64,000 bases of DNA, taken from positions 377,390-441,389 of the forward strand of contig NZ_FNOG01000006.1 of NCBI RefSeq assembly GCF_900106525.1, read 5' to 3'. Below, in pieces: positions 40,002 through 52,900 of the stretch (its first letter is position 1; the number at the start of each line of letters is the position of its first letter). The notes under the pieces were generated by a model. The model was not told the origin of the DNA and searched no databases. It worked only from the letters and a program-made list of their open reading frames with translations. Source of the stretch: Lysobacter enzymogenes. Lineage in GTDB: Bacteria; Pseudomonadota; Gammaproteobacteria; Xanthomonadales; Xanthomonadaceae. Both the position numbers and the translations under genes were made by a program.

Positions 40002-40552
40002 GGGCCTGTCCCGGCCGCGACGGTCGGGCAGGGCGGCGCGATGGCGCCGCCGTCTTCGGCGCCGCGACGCAGGTTTGCGTCGCCTGACGCGGCGCACGTG
40101 CCGCGCGTACGCGCCGCTTGATCGCCGCAAACGCGTGCTGCGGTGCAACGTCGTGCTCGCTCGCGCGCTGCATTCGGCAACTCGCGAACATCGGGCGCAG
40201 ACCGCGAAACGCCCGCTGCGCAACGCATCGCGCGCTTTGGTTTGCCCGGTCGGCCGCGTCGCCGGCTCGGTCCGCCGCGTTCGCCGCGACGCTGTCGCGG
40301 TTCTGCGACGCGCTTTGCGATTTGTCCGTGCGCATTGCGACGTTGTGCGTTCGCGCGATGCCGCGTGGGTCGCATACAGAAAAAAACCTTGTCGCTTTGC
40401 GATGCGCATGCACAAAAGCGCATGACGCCTTCTTGCTATAAGCCTGCTTGCCGTCCGTCCGCGCACGGACGCGCGCAGCGAACCTGTCGCTGAGCTGTCG
40501 CCGCGCGCGGGACACGACAACGCAACGTTGCCACCAGCGAGGTAGGTCTTCC
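40002..40552 (+). other. Long non-coding stretch upstream of the RiPP genes
   Basis: This 551-base gap contains overlapping open frames in several phases, none with a ribosome binding site, family resemblance or normal third-position GC bias, so I call no gene. The DNA is less GC-rich than the surroundings, with CGCGACG/GCAACG-type repeats of short words. The A-run GAAAAAAACC at about 40378-40387 and a TATAAG hexamer at 40437-40442 could belong to a promoter for the downstream genes, but no good -35 box is placed correctly. The ribosome binding site of the next gene is GAGGTAG at 40540-40546. Confidence 0.45.
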
Positions 40553-42052
40553 ATGAGAGATCTGATCCAGCAAGTCGACGCGCGCCTGCAGGCCCACGAC
40601 GAGTTCGGCGATTCGCAACAGATCGTCCGGCTCAACATCGAACGCTACAAATTCGCGCTGACGATGCTGGCGCGCGAAGACGCGCGATTGCGCGCGCTGC
40701 TGCCGGCGGTGGAGGCGTTGACGCAACCGGCCGCGGACAAAACGTTCGGCGACGTGCTGGTGCGCGCGGAACTGGAAGCGGCGATCGAGCGCATGGAAAC
40801 CGGGATCGCGCCGATCCATCAGACCGGCCTGCTGGCCTGGGGTCTGGAACGCAGCCTGGAGACGATCGAACAACCGCTGAGCCTGTCGGCCGCGGCGATG
40901 CAGCGCAGCTTCGTCGCCGGCCCCGACCTCGACGGCCGCCGCATCTGGATCTGGGACCTGGCCGACGCGGCCGAACCCACCGCCGACGCTTTGCGCGAAG
41001 CGCTGCGCCTGGGCTTCATGCCCGGCGGGCATTGCGAGGCCGAACTGGTACGGCCGACGCCGCAGATGGTGGCCCAGCTCGAGCGCGCCTGCGCGCTGCT
41101 GCAAGCGCTGGTGCCGCAGATGGCGCGCAGCGTGTTCGGTCATCTGCATTCGGTCGCGTTCGCGAACATGCGCAACGAGCGTGGGCCGATGCTGACCGCT
41201 TCGGGCGGCGATTCGACCCCGTGCATGATCTTCATCGCGCCGGAAGAGCTGGCCAATCCCTGGGACACGGCGGTGCACATCATGCACGAGGCCGTGCACC
41301 TCAAGCTCTCCGACCTGGTCCGCACCAGCGCCGCGGTGGTGCGCGAGGACATGGTCAGGCTGCCGTGGGGCCGCGAGATCTCGGTGTCGAACTGCCTGTT
41401 CGCGTTCCACGCCTATGTCCACCTGCAACTGTTCCGCACCGCGGTCGAGCAGCTCGGCCCGCAGTTGCACGACGTGTACGGCGCGCCGGAAAGCTATCGC
41501 GCCGGCACCCGACCGCATGCGATGTCGGTGGTCAACAACGCATCGGCCGCGCCGTTCTCGCGCGGCCACGAGCGCATGGCCTATCTGGCCGCGCAGTTCC
41601 GCGGCGAGTGGTCGCATTATCTGACGCCTTACGCGCAGCGCATGGTCGAGTGGCTGTGCGAGGCGATCGCGCCGCTGATCGATCTGCCGCGCGCGGCGCC
41701 GTCCGCGCACGGCGAGGCCGCCCATGTCCGCGCCGCCGATCACGCCGATTCGCTGCGTTACGCCAAGAACCCGCAGCTGCAACTGCGCCCGGTCGGCGAC
41801 CGCGGCATCCTGTTCGCCGCCGATCCAGCCCAGCCGAAAATCCGCAAGCTCAACACCGCCGCCTGGCTGATGTTCGAACTGTGCGACGGCCGCAGCGGAC
41901 ACGACCTGGCCCAGGCCTACGCCGACATCACCGGCGTGGCTTCCGAGCGCGCCTGGCAGCAAGTCGGGCCGGTGCTCGGCAGCCTGGTCGCCAGCGGCAT
42001 GATCCTCGCCGACGGCCGCGCCGCTGCGGCGGGCCAGGGGAGGGCGGCATGA
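40553..42052 (+). CDS. HExxH-type putative peptide beta-hydroxylase fused to a PqqD-like domain
   Basis: A 499-residue protein. The central HExxH motif is His245-Glu246...His249 (IMHEAVHLKLSD), preceded by SGGDSTPCMIFIAPEELANP. A third metal ligand may be His286 or His290 in LFAFHAYVHLQLF. This matches the HExxH-domain RiPP enzymes now described as 2-oxoglutarate-dependent peptide beta-hydroxylases. Residues about 405-488 form a second domain resembling PqqD (LNTAAWLMFELCDGRSGHDL), that is, a RiPP recognition element that binds leader peptides. The ATG at 40553 has GAGGTAG upstream; a longer frame to 40448 lacks support. The stop overlaps the next ATG. It is the first gene of the proposed RiPP locus. 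Confidence 0.83.
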   Translation: MRDLIQQVDARLQAHDEFGDSQQIVRLNIERYKFALTMLAREDARLRALLPAVEALTQPAADKTFGDVLVRAELEAAIERMETGIAPIHQTGLLAWGLERSLETIEQPLSLSAAAMQRSFVAGPDLDGRRIWIWDLADAAEPTADALREALRLGFMPGGHCEAELVRPTPQMVAQLERACALLQALVPQMARSVFGHLHSVAFANMRNERGPMLTASGGDSTPCMIFIAPEELANPWDTAVHIMHEAVHLKLSDLVRTSAAVVREDMVRLPWGREISVSNCLFAFHAYVHLQLFRTAVEQLGPQLHDVYGAPESYRAGTRPHAMSVVNNASAAPFSRGHERMAYLAAQFRGEWSHYLTPYAQRMVEWLCEAIAPLIDLPRAAPSAHGEAAHVRAADHADSLRYAKNPQLQLRPVGDRGILFAADPAQPKIRKLNTAAWLMFELCDGRSGHDLAQAYADITGVASERAWQQVGPVLGSLVASGMILADGRAAAAGQGRAA

Positions 42053-43200
42053 ACGCGCACGCCCAACTGGTCGCCGCCGCCGACCGCGCGCTCAGCACCC
42101 AGCCCAACTTCGGCGATTCACGGCGCATCCTGGCCAAGGTCTATGCGCGCTATCGCTTCGGCGCGGAACTGTTTTCCGAACGCTTGCCCGGCGTGGCGGC
42201 GCTGCAGCCGCAACTGGAGGCCTTGCCTGACGCCGAACTGCGGCGGATCTTCTTCGACCCGCTGCTGCGCCTGGCCGCCGAGGACGCTTTTTCCGAGCTG
42301 GAAAGCGGGCAACTGGCCTCGCCGCACCGCCTGGAGCAACTGCTGCCGCAGGCCCTGGCCGCGCTGCCGGCGGGATTGTGCGAGTCGCGCATGGCGCAGC
42401 GCTGGAGCCTGCAATCCGAGGAGCCGCACTGGATGTGGTCGATCCTCGGCAGCGAAGATCCCTGCGCGCTGCAACTGCAGGCGGCGTTCGACAAGATCTT
42501 CGCCGACAACCCGGCCAACCGCGGCGCGCTGCTGAACCCGGACGCGGCCGCGCGCCAGAAGGTGCAGGACTCGATCGCGCTGCTGTCGATGCTGCTGCCC
42601 AACGCCGGGCCGGCGGCGCTGCGCCACGTCGGCGCGATCGCGTTGCTGGAAGCGCAACTGGAAGGCGGCATCGTACTGTCGGCCGCCGGTGGCGACCTGA
42701 CCCCGTCGACCGTGTTCGTCTCGCTCGAGCAGCTCGGCAATCCCTGGGACATCGCCGGCTGCCTGCTGCACGAAGGCCTGCACATGAAGCTGTTCGACGC
42801 CGCGCGCTCGGTGTCGCTGGCCAAGGCGCCGGATGCGACCATCCAGGTGCCGTGGCGCAACGTGCGCTGGTCGATCGTGCGGGCGATCTTCGCCTATCAC
42901 GTCTATGTGCACCTGTCGTTGTTCAAGGCCGCGGCCTTGCTCGCCGACCCGCGCTGCTTCGAACGCTTCGGCGACCCTGCGGCCTACGTGAGCCGGGCGC
43001 ACGCGATGTCGGTGGTCAACAACGACACCGCGCACCGCTACGGACGCTCGATCGACCGCGCGCGCTACTTGGGCGACATGCTCGAGGGCGAGTGGTCGCA
43101 ACTGCTGTCGCCGGGCGGTTTCGAGCTGGTGCATTGGCTGCGCAGCTCGCTGGCGCCGGTCGACGCGGCGATGTTCGCCGACGCGCGGGAGGCCGCATGA
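42049..43200 (+). CDS. Second HExxH-type putative peptide beta-hydroxylase (stand-alone)
   Basis: A 383-residue paralogue of the preceding protein without the PqqD part. The motif is His241-Glu242...His245 (LLHEGLHMKLFD), preceded by AAGGDLTPSTVFVSLEQLGN, with the same downstream blocks FAYHVYVHLSLF and HAMSVVNNDTAHR. Overall similarity to the first enzyme is clear at these blocks but weak elsewhere, suggesting old divergence and a different target residue. ATG overlaps the stop of the upstream gene and its own stop overlaps the next ATG, so the three proteins are coupled and probably act as a complex on the precursor at 43617. The hydroxylase role is from family knowledge. Confidence 0.82.
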   Translation: MNAHAQLVAAADRALSTQPNFGDSRRILAKVYARYRFGAELFSERLPGVAALQPQLEALPDAELRRIFFDPLLRLAAEDAFSELESGQLASPHRLEQLLPQALAALPAGLCESRMAQRWSLQSEEPHWMWSILGSEDPCALQLQAAFDKIFADNPANRGALLNPDAAARQKVQDSIALLSMLLPNAGPAALRHVGAIALLEAQLEGGIVLSAAGGDLTPSTVFVSLEQLGNPWDIAGCLLHEGLHMKLFDAARSVSLAKAPDATIQVPWRNVRWSIVRAIFAYHVYVHLSLFKAAALLADPRCFERFGDPAAYVSRAHAMSVVNNDTAHRYGRSIDRARYLGDMLEGEWSQLLSPGGFELVHWLRSSLAPVDAAMFADAREAA

Positions 43201-43484
43201 ACGCGACGCAGAGCTTGCGCAAGGCCGACGGCCTGCGCTCGCGGCCGGTGCCGCAGGCCGAATGCCTGATGGTGTTTTCGCCGCAGTCCGGGCGGATCCA
43301 TTGGCTCGGCCTGGAAAGCTGGCTGCTGTTCGAACTGTGCGACGGCCGCAGCGTGGAGGCGATCGCGCGCGGCTACGCCGAACTGGCCGGCGACAAACTC
43401 GGCGGCGGCGACGCCCGGGCGCGCGCGTTGCGCGGCCTGGATTCGTTGCTGGGCAGCCGCCTGGTCGAAGCCGCGCCGGCCTGA
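43197..43484 (+). CDS. PqqD-like RiPP recognition protein
   Basis: A 95-residue free-standing PqqD-family protein. The segment HWLGLESWLLFELCDGRSVE, continuing AIARGYAEL, parallels the C-terminal domain of the HExxH fusion protein (WLMFELCDGRS), so the two recognition domains are paralogous. PqqD-type domains bind leader peptides and deliver them to modifying enzymes. There are no pqqA, B, C or E genes nearby, so a role in PQQ synthesis is unlikely. It is the likely partner of the stand-alone HExxH enzyme encoded upstream, whose stop it overlaps (ATGA). Confidence 0.82.
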   Translation: MNATQSLRKADGLRSRPVPQAECLMVFSPQSGRIHWLGLESWLLFELCDGRSVEAIARGYAELAGDKLGGGDARARALRGLDSLLGSRLVEAAPA

Positions 43485-43616
43485 GCCGGCCGGCCCCAAT
43501 CGATTCATCCCATCGGGCCCGCGGGAGGGCCGCGCAGAAGGAGCGGTAGCAAGCGTCGGCACGGACGCCGCGACGATCGCAGCAAAGCAGTACGTCCATT
43601 CCACAGGAGAACGTTC

Positions 43617-43763
43617 ATGAGCAATGAAACCAACCTGGATACGTTGAAAGACCTGCTGAGCAACAAGAAAGCGCTGGAAGAGTCGGAAGTGACCACCGGT
43701 TCGGCCGACGAGCGCCGTTGGTGGCCGCCGTACAACGTCTCGCCGGCGCCGCCGAGCAACTGA
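43617..43763 (+). CDS. Candidate RiPP precursor peptide
   Basis: A 48-residue open frame with an excellent ribosome binding site (CAGGAGAACGTTC then ATG). The N-terminal half is charged and helical (SNETNLDTLKDLLSNKKALE), like leaders bound by PqqD-type domains. It continues ESEVTTGSADERR, and the C-terminal part WWPPYNVSPAPPSN is aromatic and proline-rich, a plausible core. It has no cysteines, so it is not a lanthipeptide or sactipeptide. Possible leader cleavage sites are near GSA or the ERR pair, but no peptidase is encoded locally. It lies 132 bases after the PqqD-like gene and 52 bases before the methyltransferase. The size, context and leader/core layout support a real gene. Confidence 0.8.
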   Translation: MSNETNLDTLKDLLSNKKALEESEVTTGSADERRWWPPYNVSPAPPSN

Positions 43764-43815
43764 CGTGCCACCCGTCGCGCCCGCGAGGGCGCGGCGGGGT
43801 TTGCGCGGCTCGGCG

Positions 43816-44658
43816 ATGGAGCGGATGCAGATTCCCGACAGCAGCGGCGCCAGCGCCGACGACGCGCCGCGCGCCGGCGAAATCTGGCGCCCGCGCGAAC
43901 GGCCCGAGCACGCGGTGATGGTGCTGGCCTGCGCCGATGGCGCGGTCGATTACGCCTGGCTCGACCGCGACGCCGCCGACGACCGCGCGCCCGCGGCGCA
44001 GTGGGCGCAACGTTTCGAGGTGGTGCTGGAACAGGCCGACCACACCCATGCCACGCCGGTGCGGCGGCACTGGCTGATCGACGCGCAAGCGCAGCGCCTG
44101 CGCGGGCGCCGCGTGCTCGAACTGGGCGCGCACACCGGCGGCCTGACCCAGTCGTTGCTCGTGCACGCCGCGCAGGTGACCGCGCTGGAGCACAACCCGC
44201 GCTGCGTGCAACGCCTGCGCGAGCGCTTCGGCGACGATCTGCGCATCGTCGCCGGCGACATGCACCACGCGTTGTGGGAACTGCAGCCCGGCAGCTTCGA
44301 TGCGATCGTCTGCGCCGGCGTGCTCTACCACTCCGCGCATCCGTTCCTGCTGCTGGAGGCGATGGCGCAGCTGCGGCCGCAGGCGATCCTGATCGACACC
44401 CTCGACGACGGCGTCGCCGGGTTGCGCGCGGTGGTGCCGAACCTGGTCAACAGCTGCAACTATCGCTACAACCAGCGCCCGGACTGCGGCTACTCGGTGG
44501 TGCTGGGCGCGGACTTGATCGCCGGCGCGCTGGCCCGGTTGGGCTATGCCTCGATGCAGCGCATCGACACGATGCAGGCGACCATCGCGCCCGAGCACGA
44601 CAGCGTCTATTTCCAGCAGTGGCGGCGCAGCCTGTCGGCGTGGTTCCTGCGCGATTGA
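43816..44658 (+). CDS. Class I SAM-dependent methyltransferase
   Basis: A protein of about 280 residues. The SAM-binding motif I is RVLELGAHTGGLTQSLLVHA, the acidic end of strand 2 is VTALEHNPRCVQRL, then FDAIVCAGVLYHSAHPFLLL (motif IV/post-IV). Three starts are possible: GTG 43765, ATG 43816 or ATG 43825; the last has GGAG close by, and 43816 is reported as a compromise. Directly downstream of the precursor, it is the likely tailoring enzyme that methylates a hydroxyl, amide or amine of the modified peptide. It could instead act on a small molecule, since such folds are unspecific. Confidence 0.82.
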   Translation: MERMQIPDSSGASADDAPRAGEIWRPRERPEHAVMVLACADGAVDYAWLDRDAADDRAPAAQWAQRFEVVLEQADHTHATPVRRHWLIDAQAQRLRGRRVLELGAHTGGLTQSLLVHAAQVTALEHNPRCVQRLRERFGDDLRIVAGDMHHALWELQPGSFDAIVCAGVLYHSAHPFLLLEAMAQLRPQAILIDTLDDGVAGLRAVVPNLVNSCNYRYNQRPDCGYSVVLGADLIAGALARLGYASMQRIDTMQATIAPEHDSVYFQQWRRSLSAWFLRD

Positions 44659-44659
44659 A

Positions 44660-44678
44660 CGGCGCCGCGTAGGCGCCG
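44660..44678. terminator. Short hairpin between convergent RiPP-locus genes
   Basis: CGGCGCC at 44660-44666 and GGCGCCG at 44672-44678 flank GCGTA in the 24-base gap between the methyltransferase stop and the oxidase stop. A bidirectional terminator is plausible though the stem is short. Confidence 0.45.
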
Positions 44679-44682
44679 CCGC

Positions 44683-46134
44683 TCAGGCCCAGGCCTGGCG
44701 CACCTGGGCGAAGTAGTCGCGGAAGAACGGCACCATGCGCTTGCGGTCGGCGGCGACGATGGCCAGCAGCTCCGGCGCCAGCACGTATTCGTCTTCGCCC
44801 AGCTCGTCGTACAGGCCGTCGAGCATCTGCTCGTAGAAGCGCGGGAACGCCTGATGCCAGCCGATCCGCGGCAGCCGGATGCTGTGCTCGGCGCCCATCG
44901 CCACATAGTGCTTGAGCGCTTCGGCGCGCGCCGATGGCGGCGTGTACAGGCGGATCGGCCGGCGTTCGGGCGCGAAGGTTTCGGCGAACAGGCCGTCGCC
45001 GCCGCAGACCCGGTCGGCGATGTGCTGGGCCAGCAGCGGCGACAGGAACAGGCCGTCGCGGTAGGTGCCGGCCAGCAGCCACAAGCCTTCGACCGAGGTC
45101 GGGCCGATCAACGGGCAGGTGTCGACCGCAACCGGACGGTTGCCGGCCTGCCACCCCACCAACTGCGCCGCGCACAGATCCTGGTCGAGCTGGTCCAGCG
45201 CGCATTCGAGCAGGAAGAACATGTCCGCCGGCGAAGTGCGCAGCATCGGCTGGGCGAACAAAGTGTTGGTGGCGCCGACGTACAGGCGCCCGCCGCCGCG
45301 CGGCACCGCGTGCAGGCCGCAGGCGAAGGCGCGGTTGGGCGTGCGCAGCACGTGCGCCTGCTCGCGCGGGCCGGTGTCCAGCAGCAGCGAGGTGCCGCCG
45401 CCGCAGAACAGGCGCGGGATGCGCCGGGCCAGCTCGGGCAGGCTGTCGAGCAGGGTCTGGGTCCACACGCCGGCGGCCAGCACCACGCGCGGCGCCGACA
45501 GGCGGCGGCCGTCGGCCAGGCGCACCCCGTCGATGCGGCCGTTGCCGAGCTCCAGGCCGGTGGCGGTGGCGTCGATCAGGGTCAGTTGCGGCGAGCGTTC
45601 GATCAAGGACGTCAGCGCCTGCAGCAACCGCGCGGCGTCGATCGAGCCTTCGTTGGGCAGGTACAGCGCGCGGCTGGGGCGGCAGTCGTCGGCCGGGTTG
45701 AGCCCGTCGATGCGGTTCGGGTCGAGGGTTTCGTAGGCCTCGTTGTTCTCGTGCAAGGCCTGCAGGATCGCCGCGTAGTTCTCGTCCTCGATGGTGCCGG
45801 ACTTGCTGTTGCTGAACACCACGGTGCCGGGGCGGATCGATACGCGCTCGGCTTCGGGCAAGGCGTCGTTGATGCCGTCGAGCCAGTCCGGCCAGCAGCG
45901 CGCGGCGTGCAGGCCCTTGGCCAGCTTGGCGCGGCCGGCCTCGGTGCGCAGCAGTTGCGCGGTGACCTCGCCATAGCAGCCCATCATCGCGCCGGCGGCG
46001 GCCGAGGCCGCGCCGGTGCGCGCTTGCGGGCCGACCACCGCCACCCGCAACTGCGGGCTGCGCAGTTGCAGCGCGTGCGCCGTGGCCATGCCGAGCACGC
46101 CGTTGCCCACCACTACGACATCGAAATTCGTCAT
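44683..46134 (-). CDS. FAD-dependent oxidoreductase, amino-acid/amine oxidase type
   Basis: A 483-residue flavoprotein of the D-amino acid oxidase (DAO) superfamily. The N-terminal FAD motif GNGVLG spans residues 10-15 (VVVVGNGVLGMATAHALQLR), the second half contains RVVLAAGVWTQTLLDSLPEL, and GLWLLAGTYRDGLFLSPLLA is the C-terminal FAD-binding segment. The family includes glycine oxidase ThiO, sarcosine oxidase and D-amino acid oxidases, all oxidising C-N bonds. It converges on the RiPP operon with 24 bases between stops, so a role in modifying the peptide (for example oxidising an amine) is suggested only by position. No thi genes are next to it. Confidence 0.82.
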   Translation of the reverse strand: MTNFDVVVVGNGVLGMATAHALQLRSPQLRVAVVGPQARTGAASAAAGAMMGCYGEVTAQLLRTEAGRAKLAKGLHAARCWPDWLDGINDALPEAERVSIRPGTVVFSNSKSGTIEDENYAAILQALHENNEAYETLDPNRIDGLNPADDCRPSRALYLPNEGSIDAARLLQALTSLIERSPQLTLIDATATGLELGNGRIDGVRLADGRRLSAPRVVLAAGVWTQTLLDSLPELARRIPRLFCGGGTSLLLDTGPREQAHVLRTPNRAFACGLHAVPRGGGRLYVGATNTLFAQPMLRTSPADMFFLLECALDQLDQDLCAAQLVGWQAGNRPVAVDTCPLIGPTSVEGLWLLAGTYRDGLFLSPLLAQHIADRVCGGDGLFAETFAPERRPIRLYTPPSARAEALKHYVAMGAEHSIRLPRIGWHQAFPRFYEQMLDGLYDELGEDEYVLAPELLAIVAADRKRMVPFFRDYFAQVRQAWA

Positions 46135-46303
46135 GCCCGCTCCGTCGTGTTCGCCGCGCGCCGGTCGTGCCGCGGCCGGCCCTGCATCATGCGTGCGCTC
46201 GCCGCCGCGGGCGCGCGACCTGATGCGCAGAACGCCAACTTCGATACATCCGCTTGCGGCCTGTGCGCGTTCGCGCGCATCGGCGCGGCCGCGATGGCGC
46301 GGC

Positions 46304-47038
46304 TCAGGTGCAAGGCGCTTCCCACGCCAGCCGGCGTTCGCCGCCGGCCGCGTCCTTGACCACGAAGCACTGCACGTAATCGGACTCGGCGAAGGTCGCC
46401 AGCGCCGGGCATTCGATCTGGCGCGCGCTGGCGTACAGCGAGGCCGACGCGGCCTGCCCGGGCAGCGCCTGCAGCGCGCCGTCGGGCGTGGTGGCGAACT
46501 CGCCGCGCTGGCCGTGGCCGTCGACGCGGAAACGCAGGCGGGTGCCGTCCAGGCCGGTTAGCTCGGCCGCCATCGGCCGGCCCCAGCGCTGGATCTCGCG
46601 GTTCTTGTCGTCGAACTCGACCACCCAGTCCGGCAGCAACCACGCGTCGCGCAGCGGGATCGATTCGACCAACGCCACCGGATACGCGCCGCAGCCGTCC
46701 TCGCCCCATTCGACTACGCGCGGATCCTCGCGGCGTTTGTCCGACGACGGGTCGCCCTTGCTGGCGAAGGCGAAGCGGTAGGGCGGCGCGGCCGGTTCGG
46801 CCGCTACGCTCGCTGCGGGCGTTGTGGGCGGGGCAGGGGGCGCGGCATCGGCCGGCGACGCAACCGGTGCGGCAGGCGCAGCGGCCGGCGCCGGCGCGCG
46901 TTCGCCGCAGGCGGCGAGCGCCAGGCACAGCGCGGCGCTCGTCAGTGCGGGGCGGATCCGAGCCGTTCGTCCCGGCCAGAGCGCAGGCAGCGGGGCGGCG
47001 TTCGACGCGGGCAGGGGCCGGGGCAGTCGGCGTTCCAT
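46304..47038 (-). CDS. Putative lipoprotein of unknown function
   Basis: A 244-residue protein. After a basic start a hydrophobic stretch ends in the lipobox CLALAACGERAP, so the protein is probably lipidated at the second Cys. A low-complexity Ala/Pro linker follows, then a soluble domain that is rich in Trp and contains SKGDPSSDKRREDPRVVEWG. The ATG at 47038 has a good ribosome binding site (GAGGAGAAT). I do not recognise the folded domain. It is divergent from the glycine-zipper gene and separated from the oxidase by 169 bases. Confidence 0.75.
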   Translation of the reverse strand: MERRLPRPLPASNAAPLPALWPGRTARIRPALTSAALCLALAACGERAPAPAAAPAAPVASPADAAPPAPPTTPAASVAAEPAAPPYRFAFASKGDPSSDKRREDPRVVEWGEDGCGAYPVALVESIPLRDAWLLPDWVVEFDDKNREIQRWGRPMAAELTGLDGTRLRFRVDGHGQRGEFATTPDGALQALPGQAASASLYASARQIECPALATFAESDYVQCFVVKDAAGGERRLAWEAPCT

Positions 47039-47312
47039 GCGCAATTCTCCTCTTCGATCGGCGCGCGCCAGACGGCGTCGCGCGGGCAAAGAGCCATCAT
47101 AGGCGGCGGCGAAGCGGGGCGGTACCGCGCCGGGCGCGGCGCGATTGTTGATTGCGCGCACGCTCTGCGCATTCGTCCGCGCGCGCCGGCGCTGCGCATG
47201 CGCCCGTTCAGGCTGGGCGGATTAGCCTGCACCGGCGATGCCGGGATTGACGTTGTTATGACGAGTCCGGGCGCATCGTAGCCATCGCCCTTCCAACTCC
47301 TTTGGTGAGTTT

Positions 47313-47645
47313 ATGAACTCCACTTTCAAATCCCTGATCGCCGCTGCCCTGGTGTCGTGCGTCATGGTCACCGGCGCCGCCGGCGCGCAGACCAAGTCGA
47401 AGAAGACCCCGCATTGCTACAACGTGGAAGTGCAGCGTCCCAAGCAGATCAAGGATCAGCACAAGATCGCCGGCACCGCGATCGGTGCGGTGGCCGGCGG
47501 CCTGCTCGGCAACCAGGTCGGCGGCGGCAACGGCAAGAAGCTGGCCACCGCGGCCGGCGCGGTCGGCGGCGCGTTCGCGGGCCGCAAGATCCAGGAAAAC
47601 CAGCAGAACAAGACCGAAACGGTGATCGAGCGCCGCTGCGACTGA
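47313..47645 (+). CDS. Glycine-zipper 2TM domain protein
   Basis: A 110-residue exported protein. Signal peptide: MNSTFKSLIAAALVSCVMVT, then GAAGAQ. The glycine zipper is GTAIGAVAGGLLGNQVGGGN and its second half KKLATAAGAVGGAFAGRKIQ. The Cys in THCYNVE-like context (PHCYNVE) and the last-but-one Cys (ERRCD) could form a disulfide. Such 17-kDa-antigen/SlyB-like domains occur in small outer-membrane associated proteins. Monocistronic with a strong terminator after it. Confidence 0.88.
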   Translation: MNSTFKSLIAAALVSCVMVTGAAGAQTKSKKTPHCYNVEVQRPKQIKDQHKIAGTAIGAVAGGLLGNQVGGGNGKKLATAAGAVGGAFAGRKIQENQQNKTETVIERRCD

Positions 47646-47676
47646 CGCAGCCGGCTGCCGCCGTAGCGACACCCAG

Positions 47677-47708
47677 CCGCGCGCGGGCAACCGCGTGCGG
47701 TTTTTTTT
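47677..47708 (+). terminator. Rho-independent terminator after the glycine-zipper gene
   Basis: CCGCGCGCGG at 47677-47686 pairs with CCGCGTGCGG at 47691-47700 (one G-U) around GCAA, followed by eight T residues at 47701-47708. Strong terminator. Confidence 0.9.
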
Positions 47709-47763
47709 GTGGGTTTGTCGAGGTTGGCGTTGTTGTGGGAGCGAGCTTTTGCAGGAGAGGGCT

Positions 47764-47850
47764 TTTGTGGGAGGGCCTTCAGGCCCGATGCTTTTGTTTC
47801 AGATAGCCGCGACCTGAGACCAGAGCATCGGGCCTGAAGGCCCTCTCACC
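47764..47850. repeat. Family A repeat, inverted pair
   Basis: TTGTGGGAGGGCCTTCAGGC (47765 onward, continuing CCGATGC) and its near reverse complement GCATCGGGCCTGAAGGCCCT at 47825-47844 lie about 30 bases apart. Same family as at 15691, 28747 and 56244. Confidence 0.88.
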
Positions 47851-47981
47851 AGGGCATCTCCCACAACCGCTTCGAACCAAAGCCAAAGCCGCCGCCGCTT
47901 TCGCTTTGCCCGTTCTGCGCGCTGCAGCGACTTCACATTCGCCTCATTGGCCCTCGCAGGCGCGCCGCTAGAATGTGCGCC

Positions 47982-49058: not shown

Positions 49059-49251
49059 GCGCTGCGCCACGCTTCCGATGTGAGCTGCGTCGAAGAACCC
49101 GGCGCGCCAGCCCGCGCGCTGTTCAGCGTACTTAGAAATGGTGCCTCCGCCGGGTAGGGGGGCGTCGTTGGCGCCACGTTTGCAGAAGAATCGGGCACAC
49201 GCCCGACGGCCGCTCCGACCGGAGCCGGCCGACACTGCAACCGGGGGTTCG

Positions 49252-50904
49252 ATGAAGCAGAGCAAGTTGGTGTGCGCGCTGGGCCTGGGTCTGGCGACCC
49301 TGATCGCGTCGACGGCGGGCATGGCCCAGGACGGACCGAACCCCAATCGCGTGTGGGTCAAGTTCAAGTCCGCCGGCGGCACTGCCGCCAGCGCCAGCGC
49401 CCGCAGCGGTCTGGCCGCGGCGCCGAACCTCGGCCAGCGCATCCAGGCGCTGCGCGGCAAGCTCAGCGCGGCCAAGGCCGGCGATGCGCAGCTCAACTAC
49501 CAGTTCGACCGCATCAACACCGCGGTCATGACCCTGACCTCGCCGGAGGCGATCAAGGCCTTGCGCGCCAATCCCGAAGTGGAGTCGGTCGAGATCGACC
49601 AGCCGCGCTACCTGCAGGCGCAGAGCGTGCCCTACGGCATCGACCAGGTGCAGGCGCGCAACGTGTGGGACGCCAACCGCGACGGCACGCTCGACGCCGG
49701 CGCCGCCAACGGCTCGGACATCAAGGTCTGCATCATCGACTCGGGCCTCAACAAGAACCACGAAGACTTCGCCGGCATGACCATCACCGGTTATCCGACC
49801 GGCTGGGACACCGACACCTGCGGCCACGGCACCCACGTCGCCGGCACCATCGCCGCGGTCAACAACGACAAGGGCGTGGTCGGGGTCAGCCCGGGCAAGG
49901 TCTCGCTGCACATCGTCAAGATCTTCGGCAGCAACGGCTACAACGGCAGCGGCCACGGGCAGTGCTCGTGGACCTACTCCTCGACCCTGGCCGACGCCGC
50001 GCAGCGCTGCCAGACCGCCGGCGCCAAGATCATCAACATGAGCCTGGGCGGGCCCAGCGCGTCCACCGCCGAGCGCACCGCGTTCCAGAGCGTGGCCGAC
50101 GCCGGCGTGCTCAGCATCGCCGCGGCCGGCAACGACGGCAACAACGCCCAGAGCTATCCGGCCGGCTACGCCAGCGTGGTGTCGGTGGCGGCGGTGGATT
50201 CCAGCAACGCCAAGGCCAGCTTCTCCCAGTTCACTCCGAAGGTGGAACTGTCGGCGCCGGGCGTGGACGTGCTGAGCACCTTCCCGCTCAAGAACGATCC
50301 GCTGGTGGTCGGCACCGCCAGCTTCGCCGCGACCCCGGTCGGCGGTTCCAAGCAGGCCAGCGCCAGCGCCGGCTGGGTCAACGGCGGGCTGTGCCAGACC
50401 TCGTCGACCACCTGGCGCAACAAGATCGTGGTCTGCCAGCGCGGCACCAACACCTTCTACGAGAAGGTCAACAAGGCGCAGAGCGCGCGCGCGGCGGGCG
50501 TGGTGATCTACAACAACGTCGACGGTGCGTTCGCCCCGGCGCTGTACACCGGCACCGCGCCGAACCTGAGCCCGGCGACCTCGACCCTGCCGGCGGTGGC
50601 GATCAGCAAGGCCGACGGCGAGAACATCGTCGCCAACCTGGCCGGCAAGACCGTCGCCCTCGACGCCACCCCGTCGGTGGACAACGCCGGCTACGAGAAG
50701 ATGAGCGGCACCTCGATGGCGACCCCGCACGTGTCCGGCTCGGCCGCAGTGGTGTGGAGCGCCAAGCCCACTGCCACCGCCCAGCAGGTGCGCGATGCGC
50801 TCGACACCACCGCGCTCGACATCGACGCGGCCGGCCGCGACGACAACACCGGCTGGGGCCTGGTGCAGATCCCGGCGGCGATCGCCGAACTGCAGTCGCA
50901 GTAA
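49252..50904 (+). CDS. Secreted subtilisin-like (S8) protease with PA insert
   Basis: A 550-residue secreted serine protease. Signal peptide MKQSKLVCALGLGLATLIAS (ends GMAQ), a propeptide to about residue 125, then the peptidase S8 domain with triad Asp163 (CIIDSGLNKNHED), His192 (GHGTHVAGT) and Ser488 (SGTSMATPH). A PA (protease-associated) domain is inserted before the serine (about residues 350-460; ASAGWVNGGLCQ, AAGVVIYNNVDGAF). No C-terminal extension is present. It would degrade extracellular protein, consistent with a bacteriolytic predatory lifestyle. Followed by a strong terminator. A tandem paralogue is encoded next. Confidence 0.95.
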   Translation: MKQSKLVCALGLGLATLIASTAGMAQDGPNPNRVWVKFKSAGGTAASASARSGLAAAPNLGQRIQALRGKLSAAKAGDAQLNYQFDRINTAVMTLTSPEAIKALRANPEVESVEIDQPRYLQAQSVPYGIDQVQARNVWDANRDGTLDAGAANGSDIKVCIIDSGLNKNHEDFAGMTITGYPTGWDTDTCGHGTHVAGTIAAVNNDKGVVGVSPGKVSLHIVKIFGSNGYNGSGHGQCSWTYSSTLADAAQRCQTAGAKIINMSLGGPSASTAERTAFQSVADAGVLSIAAAGNDGNNAQSYPAGYASVVSVAAVDSSNAKASFSQFTPKVELSAPGVDVLSTFPLKNDPLVVGTASFAATPVGGSKQASASAGWVNGGLCQTSSTTWRNKIVVCQRGTNTFYEKVNKAQSARAAGVVIYNNVDGAFAPALYTGTAPNLSPATSTLPAVAISKADGENIVANLAGKTVALDATPSVDNAGYEKMSGTSMATPHVSGSAAVVWSAKPTATAQQVRDALDTTALDIDAAGRDDNTGWGLVQIPAAIAELQSQ

Positions 50905-51214: not shown

Positions 51215-52900
51215 ATGAAGCAGAGCAAGTTGATGTGCGCGTTGAGCCTGGGCCTGGCGGCGTGGGCCGCGTCGAGCGCGGTCGCGGCGCAGGATGCGGC
51301 CGCGCCGCGCGTCTGGATCAAGTTCAAGGAGGCGCCGGCTGCGGCTGCGCCCACGCTGTCGACCCGGCCGCAGGCCATCCTCGACCAGATCGCGAGCATC
51401 GTGGCCCGCTCGAACGAACGCATGAGCGCCAATGTCCGCGGCGTCAACGCGCTGCTCGGCCAGCGCAAGCTCGGCCAGGCGACCTTGCACCATCGCTTCG
51501 AGGGCCTCAGCCGTGCGGTGTTCACCCTGCCGTCGCGCGAAGCGCTGGAGAGCCTGCGCAAGGATCCGTCGGTGGAGTCGATCGAAATCGACCAGCCGCG
51601 CTACCTGCTGCAGCAGGACACTCCCGTCGGCATCGGCCAGATCCAGGCCAGCGCGGTGTGGGATGCCGACGGCGACGGCGCGCTCGACGCCGGCGCGCCT
51701 ACCGGCGCGGGCATCAAGGTCTGCGTGATCGATTCGGGCCTGAAGCGGACCCACGAGGATCTGGCCGGCGTGGCCATCGCCGGCAGCGCCAACAGTTTCG
51801 GCCCTAGCTGGGACACCGACACCTGCGGCCACGGCACCCATGTCGCCGGCACCGTCGCCGCGGCCCACAACGACAAGGGTGTGGTCGGCGTGAGCCCGGG
51901 CAAGGTCTCGCTGCACATCGTCAAGGTGTTCGACGGCGCCGAATGCAAGCCGGTGCTGTTCGCCTCCGACAACGTCGCCGCGGTCAAGAAGTGCGAGGCG
52001 GCCGGGGCCAAGGTCATCAACATGAGCCTGGGCGGCCCGAACCGGTCGTCCACCGAGGAAAGCGAGTTCAAGCTGGCGGCCGACCGCGGCACGCTGGTGG
52101 TCGCCGCGGCCGGCAATTCCGCGATCACGCCGTTTCCCGGAACGAACCTGGTCAATCCGCCGCTATATCCCGCGTCCTACCCGAGCGTGGTGTCGGTGGC
52201 GGCGGTGGACTCGAGCGACAAGCGCGCGAGTTTCTCCGAGTTCAACAATCAGATCGACCTTGCCGCGCCGGGCGTCGGCGTGCGCAGCCTCGGCCTGTCC
52301 TCGAGCGAGCCGTTGAAGGTCGGCAACACGGCGTTCCCGGCCACGGTGTTGACTGGCTCCGCCGTCACCCGGGCCAGCGCGGGCTGGGTCGACGGCGGCT
52401 TGTGCAAGGCCTCGTCGGCGGCGTTCAAGGGCAAGATCGTGCTGTGCCAGCGCGGCGAGATCAGTTTCGTCGACAAGGTCGCCAACGCGAAGTCGGGCGG
52501 CGCGCTCGGCGTGGCGATCTACAACAACGTCGACGGCGACTTCGCCGGCGGCCTGTCGCCGGCCAGCACGATTCCGGCGACCGGCATCTCCAAGGCCAGC
52601 GGCGAGGCGATCCTGGCGGGACTGGCGGGGCAAACCATGGTCGTCAGCGGCGTCTTGAGCGTGAACGACACGTCCTATGCAGTGAAGGACGGCACCTCGA
52701 TGGCGTCGCCGCACGTGGCCGGCGCGGCCGCGGTGGTGTGGAGCGCGCGCCCGAACGCGACCGCGCAGCAGGTGCGCGAAGCGCTGTTCACGACCGCCAG
52801 GGACATCGACGCCGCCGGCCGCGACGACAACACCGGCTGGGGTCTGGTGCAGGTCAAGGCCGCGATCGATGAGCTCAAGCGCGTGGTCCCGGCGAAGTAA
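51215..52900 (+). CDS. Second secreted subtilisin-like (S8) protease with PA insert
   Basis: A 561-residue paralogue of the upstream protease with a near-identical signal peptide (MKQSKLMCALSLGLAAWAAS). Propeptide to about residue 135, then Asp173 (VIDSGLKRTHED), His206 (GHGTHVAGT) and Ser495 (GTSMASPHVAG). The PA insert is present (ASAGWVDGGLCKAS; GVAIYNNVDGDFAGG). A calcium-type or substrate loop differs: the first protease has an extra Gly/Ser-rich segment (GSNGYNGSGHGQ) where this one has DGAECKPVLF. The divergence in loops but not in the core suggests different substrates. Confidence 0.95.
   Translation: MKQSKLMCALSLGLAAWAASSAVAAQDAAAPRVWIKFKEAPAAAAPTLSTRPQAILDQIASIVARSNERMSANVRGVNALLGQRKLGQATLHHRFEGLSRAVFTLPSREALESLRKDPSVESIEIDQPRYLLQQDTPVGIGQIQASAVWDADGDGALDAGAPTGAGIKVCVIDSGLKRTHEDLAGVAIAGSANSFGPSWDTDTCGHGTHVAGTVAAAHNDKGVVGVSPGKVSLHIVKVFDGAECKPVLFASDNVAAVKKCEAAGAKVINMSLGGPNRSSTEESEFKLAADRGTLVVAAAGNSAITPFPGTNLVNPPLYPASYPSVVSVAAVDSSDKRASFSEFNNQIDLAAPGVGVRSLGLSSSEPLKVGNTAFPATVLTGSAVTRASAGWVDGGLCKASSAAFKGKIVLCQRGEISFVDKVANAKSGGALGVAIYNNVDGDFAGGLSPASTIPATGISKASGEAILAGLAGQTMVVSGVLSVNDTSYAVKDGTSMASPHVAGAAAVVWSARPNATAQQVREALFTTARDIDAAGRDDNTGWGLVQVKAAIDELKRVVPAK

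Follow-up and report, generated by a model that had tools for sequence, protein, structure and literature searches.

The stretch of DNA examined here (the window) comprises 64,000 nucleotides of Lysobacter enzymogenes (positions 377,390 to 441,389 of contig NZ_FNOG01000006.1) and contains a group of six genes that may direct the production of a ribosomally synthesized and post-translationally modified peptide (RiPP). Two of them, HEx1 (40553-42052, plus strand, 499 amino acids) and HEx2 (42049-43200, plus strand, 383 amino acids), encode proteins with an HExxH motif, HEAVH at residue 245 and HEGLH at residue 241, respectively. The next gene encodes a PqqD-like protein (43197-43484, plus strand, 95 amino acids), and the three are joined by ATGA overlaps at 42049-42052 and 43197-43200. 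After a gap of 132 bp come a 48-codon precursor peptide gene (43617-43763, plus strand), a putative class I S-adenosylmethionine (SAM)-dependent methyltransferase gene (43816-44658, plus strand, starting at ATG 43816 with an alternative start at GTG 43765) and, convergent with these, the gene for a flavin adenine dinucleotide (FAD) enzyme of the Orf1 type (44683-46134, minus strand, 483 amino acids). An earlier note on this DNA had described a compact RiPP locus built on two HExxH enzymes without radical SAM or LanM-type enzymes. Re-derivation of the coordinates placed all six genes as described there and bore out the ATGA coupling, and neither radical SAM nor LanM-type families were matched by any of the six proteins in NCBIfam or Pfam. 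The same searches found no integrase among the six, and Rfam gave no match in the window. The flanking genes are ordinary, with rpsF, rpsR, rplI and dnaB upstream and alr downstream.

This GC-rich DNA abounds in small open reading frames (ORFs), with 105 of at least 40 amino acids overlapping a 14-kb stretch, so that a 48-amino-acid ORF alone means little and conservation has to decide. A profile of the peptide matched 7 of 20 genomes of the genus (E 1e-33 to 1e-34). The ratio of nonsynonymous to synonymous differences (pN/pS) for the whole peptide was 0.25 over all pairs and 0.29 between two clades of four and three genomes. A Shine-Dalgarno sequence, AGGAG (43605-43609, plus strand), precedes the gene in all seven loci, within some 60 bp of partly conserved sequence. 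On the strength of this conservation, coding selection and ribosome-binding site, the aromatic and proline-rich precursor proposed earlier is a real gene under selection. Its best-conserved segment, residues 20-43 (43674-43745, plus strand; LEESEVTTGSADERRWWPPYNVSP), reads LEESEVTTGSADERRWWPPYxVxP across the loci, is followed by a drifting tail and probably contains the core. Between the clades pN/pS was 0.31 for residues 1-19, 0.092 within residues 20-43 and 0.84 for the tail that starts at residue 44, the segment limits having been set after inspection of the alignment, so that the low value of 0.09 is descriptive and not a test. Corresponding values were 0.32-0.49 for the five other module proteins, 0.13 for DnaB and 0.32 for Alr. 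The whole-peptide value of 0.29 lies near the 0.32 of HEx2, and this closeness, like the manner in which the segments were chosen, weighs against the scheme proposed below. An account in which the 48-amino-acid ORF is not the substrate and the enzymes modify another host protein is extremely unlikely, given that all seven loci have the ORF, the ribosome-binding site and the coding selection in the same position.

The earlier note had named, as an outcome that would speak against it, that homologues of the HExxH proteins never occur with the peptide; in six of six other loci, all six genes were present, ordered and oriented as in the window, with dnaB on one side and alr on the other. The flavoenzyme was found in the same seven genomes of the genus as the peptide. 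The remaining 13 genomes gave no match to the six proteins (E 1e-6) in the dnaB-alr regions fetched, and the peptide and the flavoenzyme were not found elsewhere in these 13 either, the other four proteins not having been sought genome-wide in all of them. In a comparison with a near relative (G250, locus L087; DnaB 100% and Alr 96% identical), blastn homology ended at window position 40040 and restarted at 46302, with 86 bp between. This defines a present/absent module (40041-46301) that extends from dnaB to the gene at 46304-47161 and is a discrete, dispensable block. A search of genome contigs with the HEx2 alignment, using two strict patterns, returned two loci, in Lysobacter sp. yr284 and Lysobacter sp. 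Root690.

Both HExxH proteins scored above the cut-off of 40 for TIGR04267, the alpha-ketoglutarate (αKG)-HExxH-type peptide β-hydroxylase family (HEx1, 65.7 bits; HEx2, 65.2 bits), and these were the only two matches in the window genome. Residues H241, E242 and H245 of HEx2 were invariant across a 22-row alignment, for which L024 (an ORF without HExxH, excluded beforehand) and L029 (an in-frame stop) were omitted from the 10 single-HExxH loci L022-L031. The fold found for HEx2 was of the ChlH type. A match of the 22-row profile to 4m0m (E 0.0013, through the N-terminal part) was taken as unrelated. By family score and motif, HEx1 is probably a peptide hydroxylase of the αKG-HExxH type that carries a PqqD-like domain at its C-terminus, and HEx2 is probably a hydroxylase of the same type without that domain; the earlier claim of hydroxylation holds to the extent of these two probable enzymes. 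Target residues reported for the family are His, Asp, Phe, Gln and Pro. Some results weigh against the assignment. The profile built from HEx2 only reached ChlH at no better than E 0.029, and the profile built from HEx1 only gave no match to it even with E allowed to rise to 1. The structural model of HEx1 was a poor one of low confidence (predicted local distance difference test, pLDDT, 60.9; four sequences); its top-ranked match was ChlH (8s5f, E 5.8e-6), and lasso B1 (6jx3, E 1.3, TMt 0.69) came at rank 20. HExxH is also a peptidase motif, and PflC, a member of the same family, is reported to have hydrolysed a leaderless substrate (PMC12636437); with two scores above the hydroxylase cut-off, we regard it as highly unlikely that these proteins are metallopeptidases that trim the peptide.

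The C-terminus of HEx1 (about residues 424-484) matched PqqD (PF05402) at E 9e-5 with 23.2 bits, slightly under the gathering threshold of 23.4. The separate PqqD-like protein matched PqqD weakly in Pfam (E 0.08), was linked to the HEx1 C-terminus by profile comparison (hhalign probability 96.7%) and shares an LCDGR segment with Streptomyces HExxH-PqqD fusions. The PqqD-type recognition suggested previously may operate in both places. The separate protein is probably the partner of HEx2, and the two together may represent a split form of the Streptomyces fusion. A FastTree phylogeny placed HEx2 nearer the Streptomyces fusions than HEx1, with a support of 0.894 that is too weak to lean on.

The methyltransferase matched Methyltransf_25 (E 3.5e-10) and Methyltransf_11 (E 9.9e-10) in Pfam, and no NCBIfam family above its cut-off. 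The daptide-type methyltransferase family scored 25.1 bits, where its cut-off is 175; this match was generic and was not used. The protein can be assigned generically alone, as a putative class I SAM-dependent enzyme, which counts among the points against the scheme proposed below.

Among solved structures, a phmmer search matched the flavoenzyme to Orf1, 'N-formimidoyl fortimicin A synthase', with 344 bits (E 1.1e-101) over residues 4-482 of 483 and an identity of 41%. Its score for glycine oxidase ThiO (TIGR02352) was 109.6 bits, below the cut-off of 250.8, and a plain glycine or D-amino-acid oxidase (DAO) was rejected on these two results. The amine oxidation by a DAO-type flavoenzyme that had been proposed for this gene accordingly calls for correction, the enzyme being a full-length relative of Orf1 with group-transfer residues. 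In an alignment of the seven module enzymes, Orf1, five other relatives and five DAO paralogues of the window genome, nine Orf1 residues were identical in all seven module enzymes (window/Orf1: C272/C281, H275/H284, Y285/Y294, T289/T298, N290/N299, F307/F316, R333/R342, R359/R368 and E416/E426). Of these, H284, Y294, R342 and R368 of Orf1 are the residues of glycine oxidation. The Cys281 column held V, A, A, F and a gap (L065) in the five DAO paralogues, a rough control in that it covers matched stretches only, with gaps at 1-6 of 11 mapped sites per row.

According to the Orf1 study (PMC10156733), glycine is oxidised at the FAD site, the product is held on Cys281 as an adduct with a nitrogen-oxygen-sulfur (NOS) link, and an N-formimidoyl or N-iminoacetyl group is then transferred to an amine; C281 and E426 are described as essential for transfer and dispensable for glycine oxidation. 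Because these two residues are needed for transfer only, their conservation indicates transfer rather than simple oxidation, and N-formimidoylation or N-iminoacetylation (+27 or +71 Da) would be a better prediction than amine oxidation. A point against the full scheme is that the acceptor-site residues Glu312 and Glu313 of Orf1 correspond to Ala303 and Asp304 in 7 of 7 module enzymes. Both positions also vary in the five other relatives. They characterise Orf1 together with its acceptor, and not the family as a whole. In the same study, recognition of the streptolidine moiety of the acceptor falls to Glu312, and an E312A variant still formimidoylates glycylthricin (PMC10156733), so the changes fit a different acceptor.

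The flavoenzyme was detected in 4 of 247 genomes of the family, all Lysobacter, and in 2 of 369 genomes of the class, the second being G281. In a sample of the phylum, the window genome was the sole match for both the flavoenzyme (1e-50) and HEx2 (1e-12), at 1 of 398 each; in the class and phylum scans at most four first-look candidates were scored per genome, and the lack of a match there is to be read as none at the thresholds used. Within 18 kb of the Orf1-type gene of G281 (L055), the other five module proteins gave no match. By eye this gene lies among ordinary-looking genes; this setting suggests that the Orf1 family is not limited to natural-product clusters and also weighs against the scheme. 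Nine plasmid records carried HExxH relatives and 13 carried Orf1-type relatives, none being in both lists, and regions from 6 of the 22 were inspected. One of these records (L049) has a gene annotated merely as FAD-dependent oxidoreductase about 6.5 kb from its HExxH gene and is outside the Orf1-type list.

Orf1-type genes were also seen in other settings. On plasmids of the Pseudomonas syringae group (L054:7995-9443), an Orf1-type enzyme with 28% identity, in which the Cys is kept and Phe316 is replaced by Gly, adjoins a 2-oxoglutarate/iron oxygenase gene, and the one region inspected has IS91-family transposase genes on both sides of the pair. Genes with the Cys kept lie near a nonribosomal peptide synthetase (NRPS) gene in Streptomyces finlayi (L051:7974-9431) and near an anthranilate-synthase-family gene on an Agrobacterium plasmid (L052:7983-9473), which hints at unexplored formimidoylated products.

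Read together, these findings point to a RiPP locus in which the precursor would be β-hydroxylated by HEx1 and HEx2, methylated, freed of its leader and capped by the Orf1-type flavoenzyme, a scheme to which we give somewhat better than even prospects. What survives of the peptide-modification system first described is the RiPP locus, with a precursor in 7 of 7 loci; what does not is the flavoenzyme as an amine oxidase. The leader would dock on the PqqD-type domains, one fused to HEx1 and one separate and probably serving HEx2, and the two HExxH enzymes, depending on αKG and Fe(II), would hydroxylate β-carbons within SADERRWWPPYxVxP, where Asp31, Pro37, Pro38, Trp35/36 and Tyr39 are candidate sites. 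The methyltransferase would add a methyl group, and a protease encoded elsewhere would remove the leader. The flavoenzyme would oxidise free glycine, bind the product to Cys272 in a NOS adduct and pass an N-formimidoyl or N-iminoacetyl group to the amine freed by leader cleavage. Before cleavage, the precursor offers amines only at its N-terminus and at Lys11, Lys17 and Lys18 (Gln in G248), and the core is without Lys, which is why the cap is placed after leader removal. The predicted mass shifts are +16 per hydroxylation and +14 for the methyl group. A formimidoyl group would add +27 and an iminoacetyl group +71, both values coming from mass data in the Orf1 study (PMC10156733).

Further points stand against this scheme. 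With a core free of Lys, an acceptor amine in the core must arise by cleavage, and protease and peptidase families, as well as exporter and transporter families, were without a match among the six proteins (NCBIfam, Pfam). The flavoenzyme gene lies on the opposite strand and so is not co-transcribed with the other five. Because the genes of the block are inherited together, finding them side by side does not show independently that every one of them acts for the peptide. Strand, block inheritance, the core without Lys and the replaced Glu312/Glu313 would all suit an arrangement in which the RiPP part is right and the flavoenzyme, riding in the module, oxidises glycine or transfers the formimidoyl or iminoacetyl group to a small molecule that has nothing to do with the peptide, whether for self-protection or for another purpose; the Orf1-type gene of G281 in its ordinary-looking neighbourhood fits as well. 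We consider this arrangement rather unlikely, as the flavoenzyme accompanies the peptide in all seven loci, which span two clades, was found in no other genus among the 247 family genomes and is constrained at the level of HEx2 (pN/pS 0.33 and 0.32, respectively).

The missing transporter and peptidase families also bear on the fate of the product, which may not be exported as an antibiotic but retained by the cell to serve as a cofactor, signal or metal ligand derived from the peptide, its core being strictly conserved for use by a host enzyme. PqqD-type domains also serve in the biosynthesis of pyrroloquinoline quinone (PQQ), and the conserved segment is less variable than the enzymes, both of which would agree with such a role. 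However, the module is dispensable, being absent from the dnaB-alr interval in 13 of 20 genus genomes with the peptide not found elsewhere in them, and it encodes no dependent enzyme. Lysobacter has many secreted proteases and exporters, and those encoded elsewhere could act on the peptide. A retained product is less likely than the small-molecule alternative in our estimate; it overlaps with the capped-peptide scheme, and the likelihoods given here are not meant to sum to one.

Other features were noted around the module and in the module-bearing genomes. The dnaB-alr interval (window 40002-47972; L087-L099) is variable in the genus, spanning 1,771-7,662 bases in the 13 module-free genomes, and may hold other cargo there. 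The gene beside the module (46304-47161, minus strand) is without clear family; it is shared by the window and the three further loci of its clade, the remaining three module loci gave no match at E 1e-8, and homologues occur in module-free L087, L090 and L094. Directly after alr lie tandem genes for subtilisin-type (S8) proteases with PA domains (49138-50904 and 51215-52900, plus strand). Two module-bearing genomes, G090 and G173, encode an extra single TIGR04267-type protein elsewhere (L022:6423-7589 and L025:6542-7663), that of G173 scoring below the cut-off, possibly indicating a second RiPP locus.

RiPPs, αKG-HExxH hydroxylases and Orf1 chemistry are each already known. Their six-gene combination was seen only in the Lysobacter set among the genus, family, class and phylum genomes and the plasmids. 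In a literature that leaves out most subscription journals, no publication was found for HExxH with Lysobacter and RiPP, and nothing for formimidoyl with RiPP beyond an unrelated case report; publications under the name of the Orf1 enzyme were the Orf1 study itself, one on kasugamycin and one on gene induction in Photorhabdus. Few natural products carry N-formimidoyl or N-iminoacetyl groups. There is a fair chance that the proposed modification is new to ribosomal peptides. That the product is a β-hydroxylated Trp-Trp-Pro-Pro-Tyr RiPP, capped at its N-terminus with a glycine-derived group by NOS-bridge flavin chemistry, and with it a new RiPP class, is a tentative proposal that we place a little short of an even chance. 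If the flavoenzyme does act on the peptide, ribosomal peptides would gain an amidine-type cap, NOS chemistry would gain a gene-encoded substrate, and six small genes would make a system testable in E. coli. In antibiotics of the BD-12 type, the same two groups defeat modifying enzymes, as the Orf1 study relates (PMC10156733). Furthermore, the tandem HExxH pair offers a natural test of how two hydroxylases of a young family divide the sites of one short core.

Compared with known systems, the locus differs from ChlBH/ChlH (PDB 8s5f) in that no radical SAM gene is among the six, HEx1 is fused to a PqqD-like domain, and two HExxH enzymes stand in tandem. It resembles PflC/PosC of Pseudomonas, which hydroxylate Gln (PMC12636437), and PesO of the nitrilobacillins, which hydroxylates Pro (PMC13060819), in the action of αKG-HExxH enzymes on RiPP precursors. 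In those clusters, the HExxH enzyme is paired with multinuclear non-heme iron-dependent oxidative (MNIO) enzymes and with either a GNAT or an asparagine-synthetase-like protein, whereas here its partners are a second HExxH protein, a methyltransferase and an Orf1-type flavoenzyme. Lanthipeptide clusters on two Streptomyces plasmids (L049 and L050) share the HExxH-PqqD build of HEx1, with 33% and 30.5% identity to HEx2, but contain a lantibiotic dehydratase, a lanthionine synthetase C family protein and a sulfotransferase, none of which is among the six genes here. In both of these (L049:7998-12224 and L050:7932-12154), the fusion is combined with the sulfotransferase gene, which suggests hydroxylation followed by sulfation. 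The likeness to Orf1 is of another kind, with homology over nearly the full length and the NOS cysteine and glycine-oxidation residues kept. Orf1 acts on streptothricin-type and aminoglycoside amines, the only acceptors for which that study reports NOS-bridge capping (PMC10156733), whereas its relative here sits in a ribosomal peptide locus, and a peptide acceptor, if true, would extend this chemistry.

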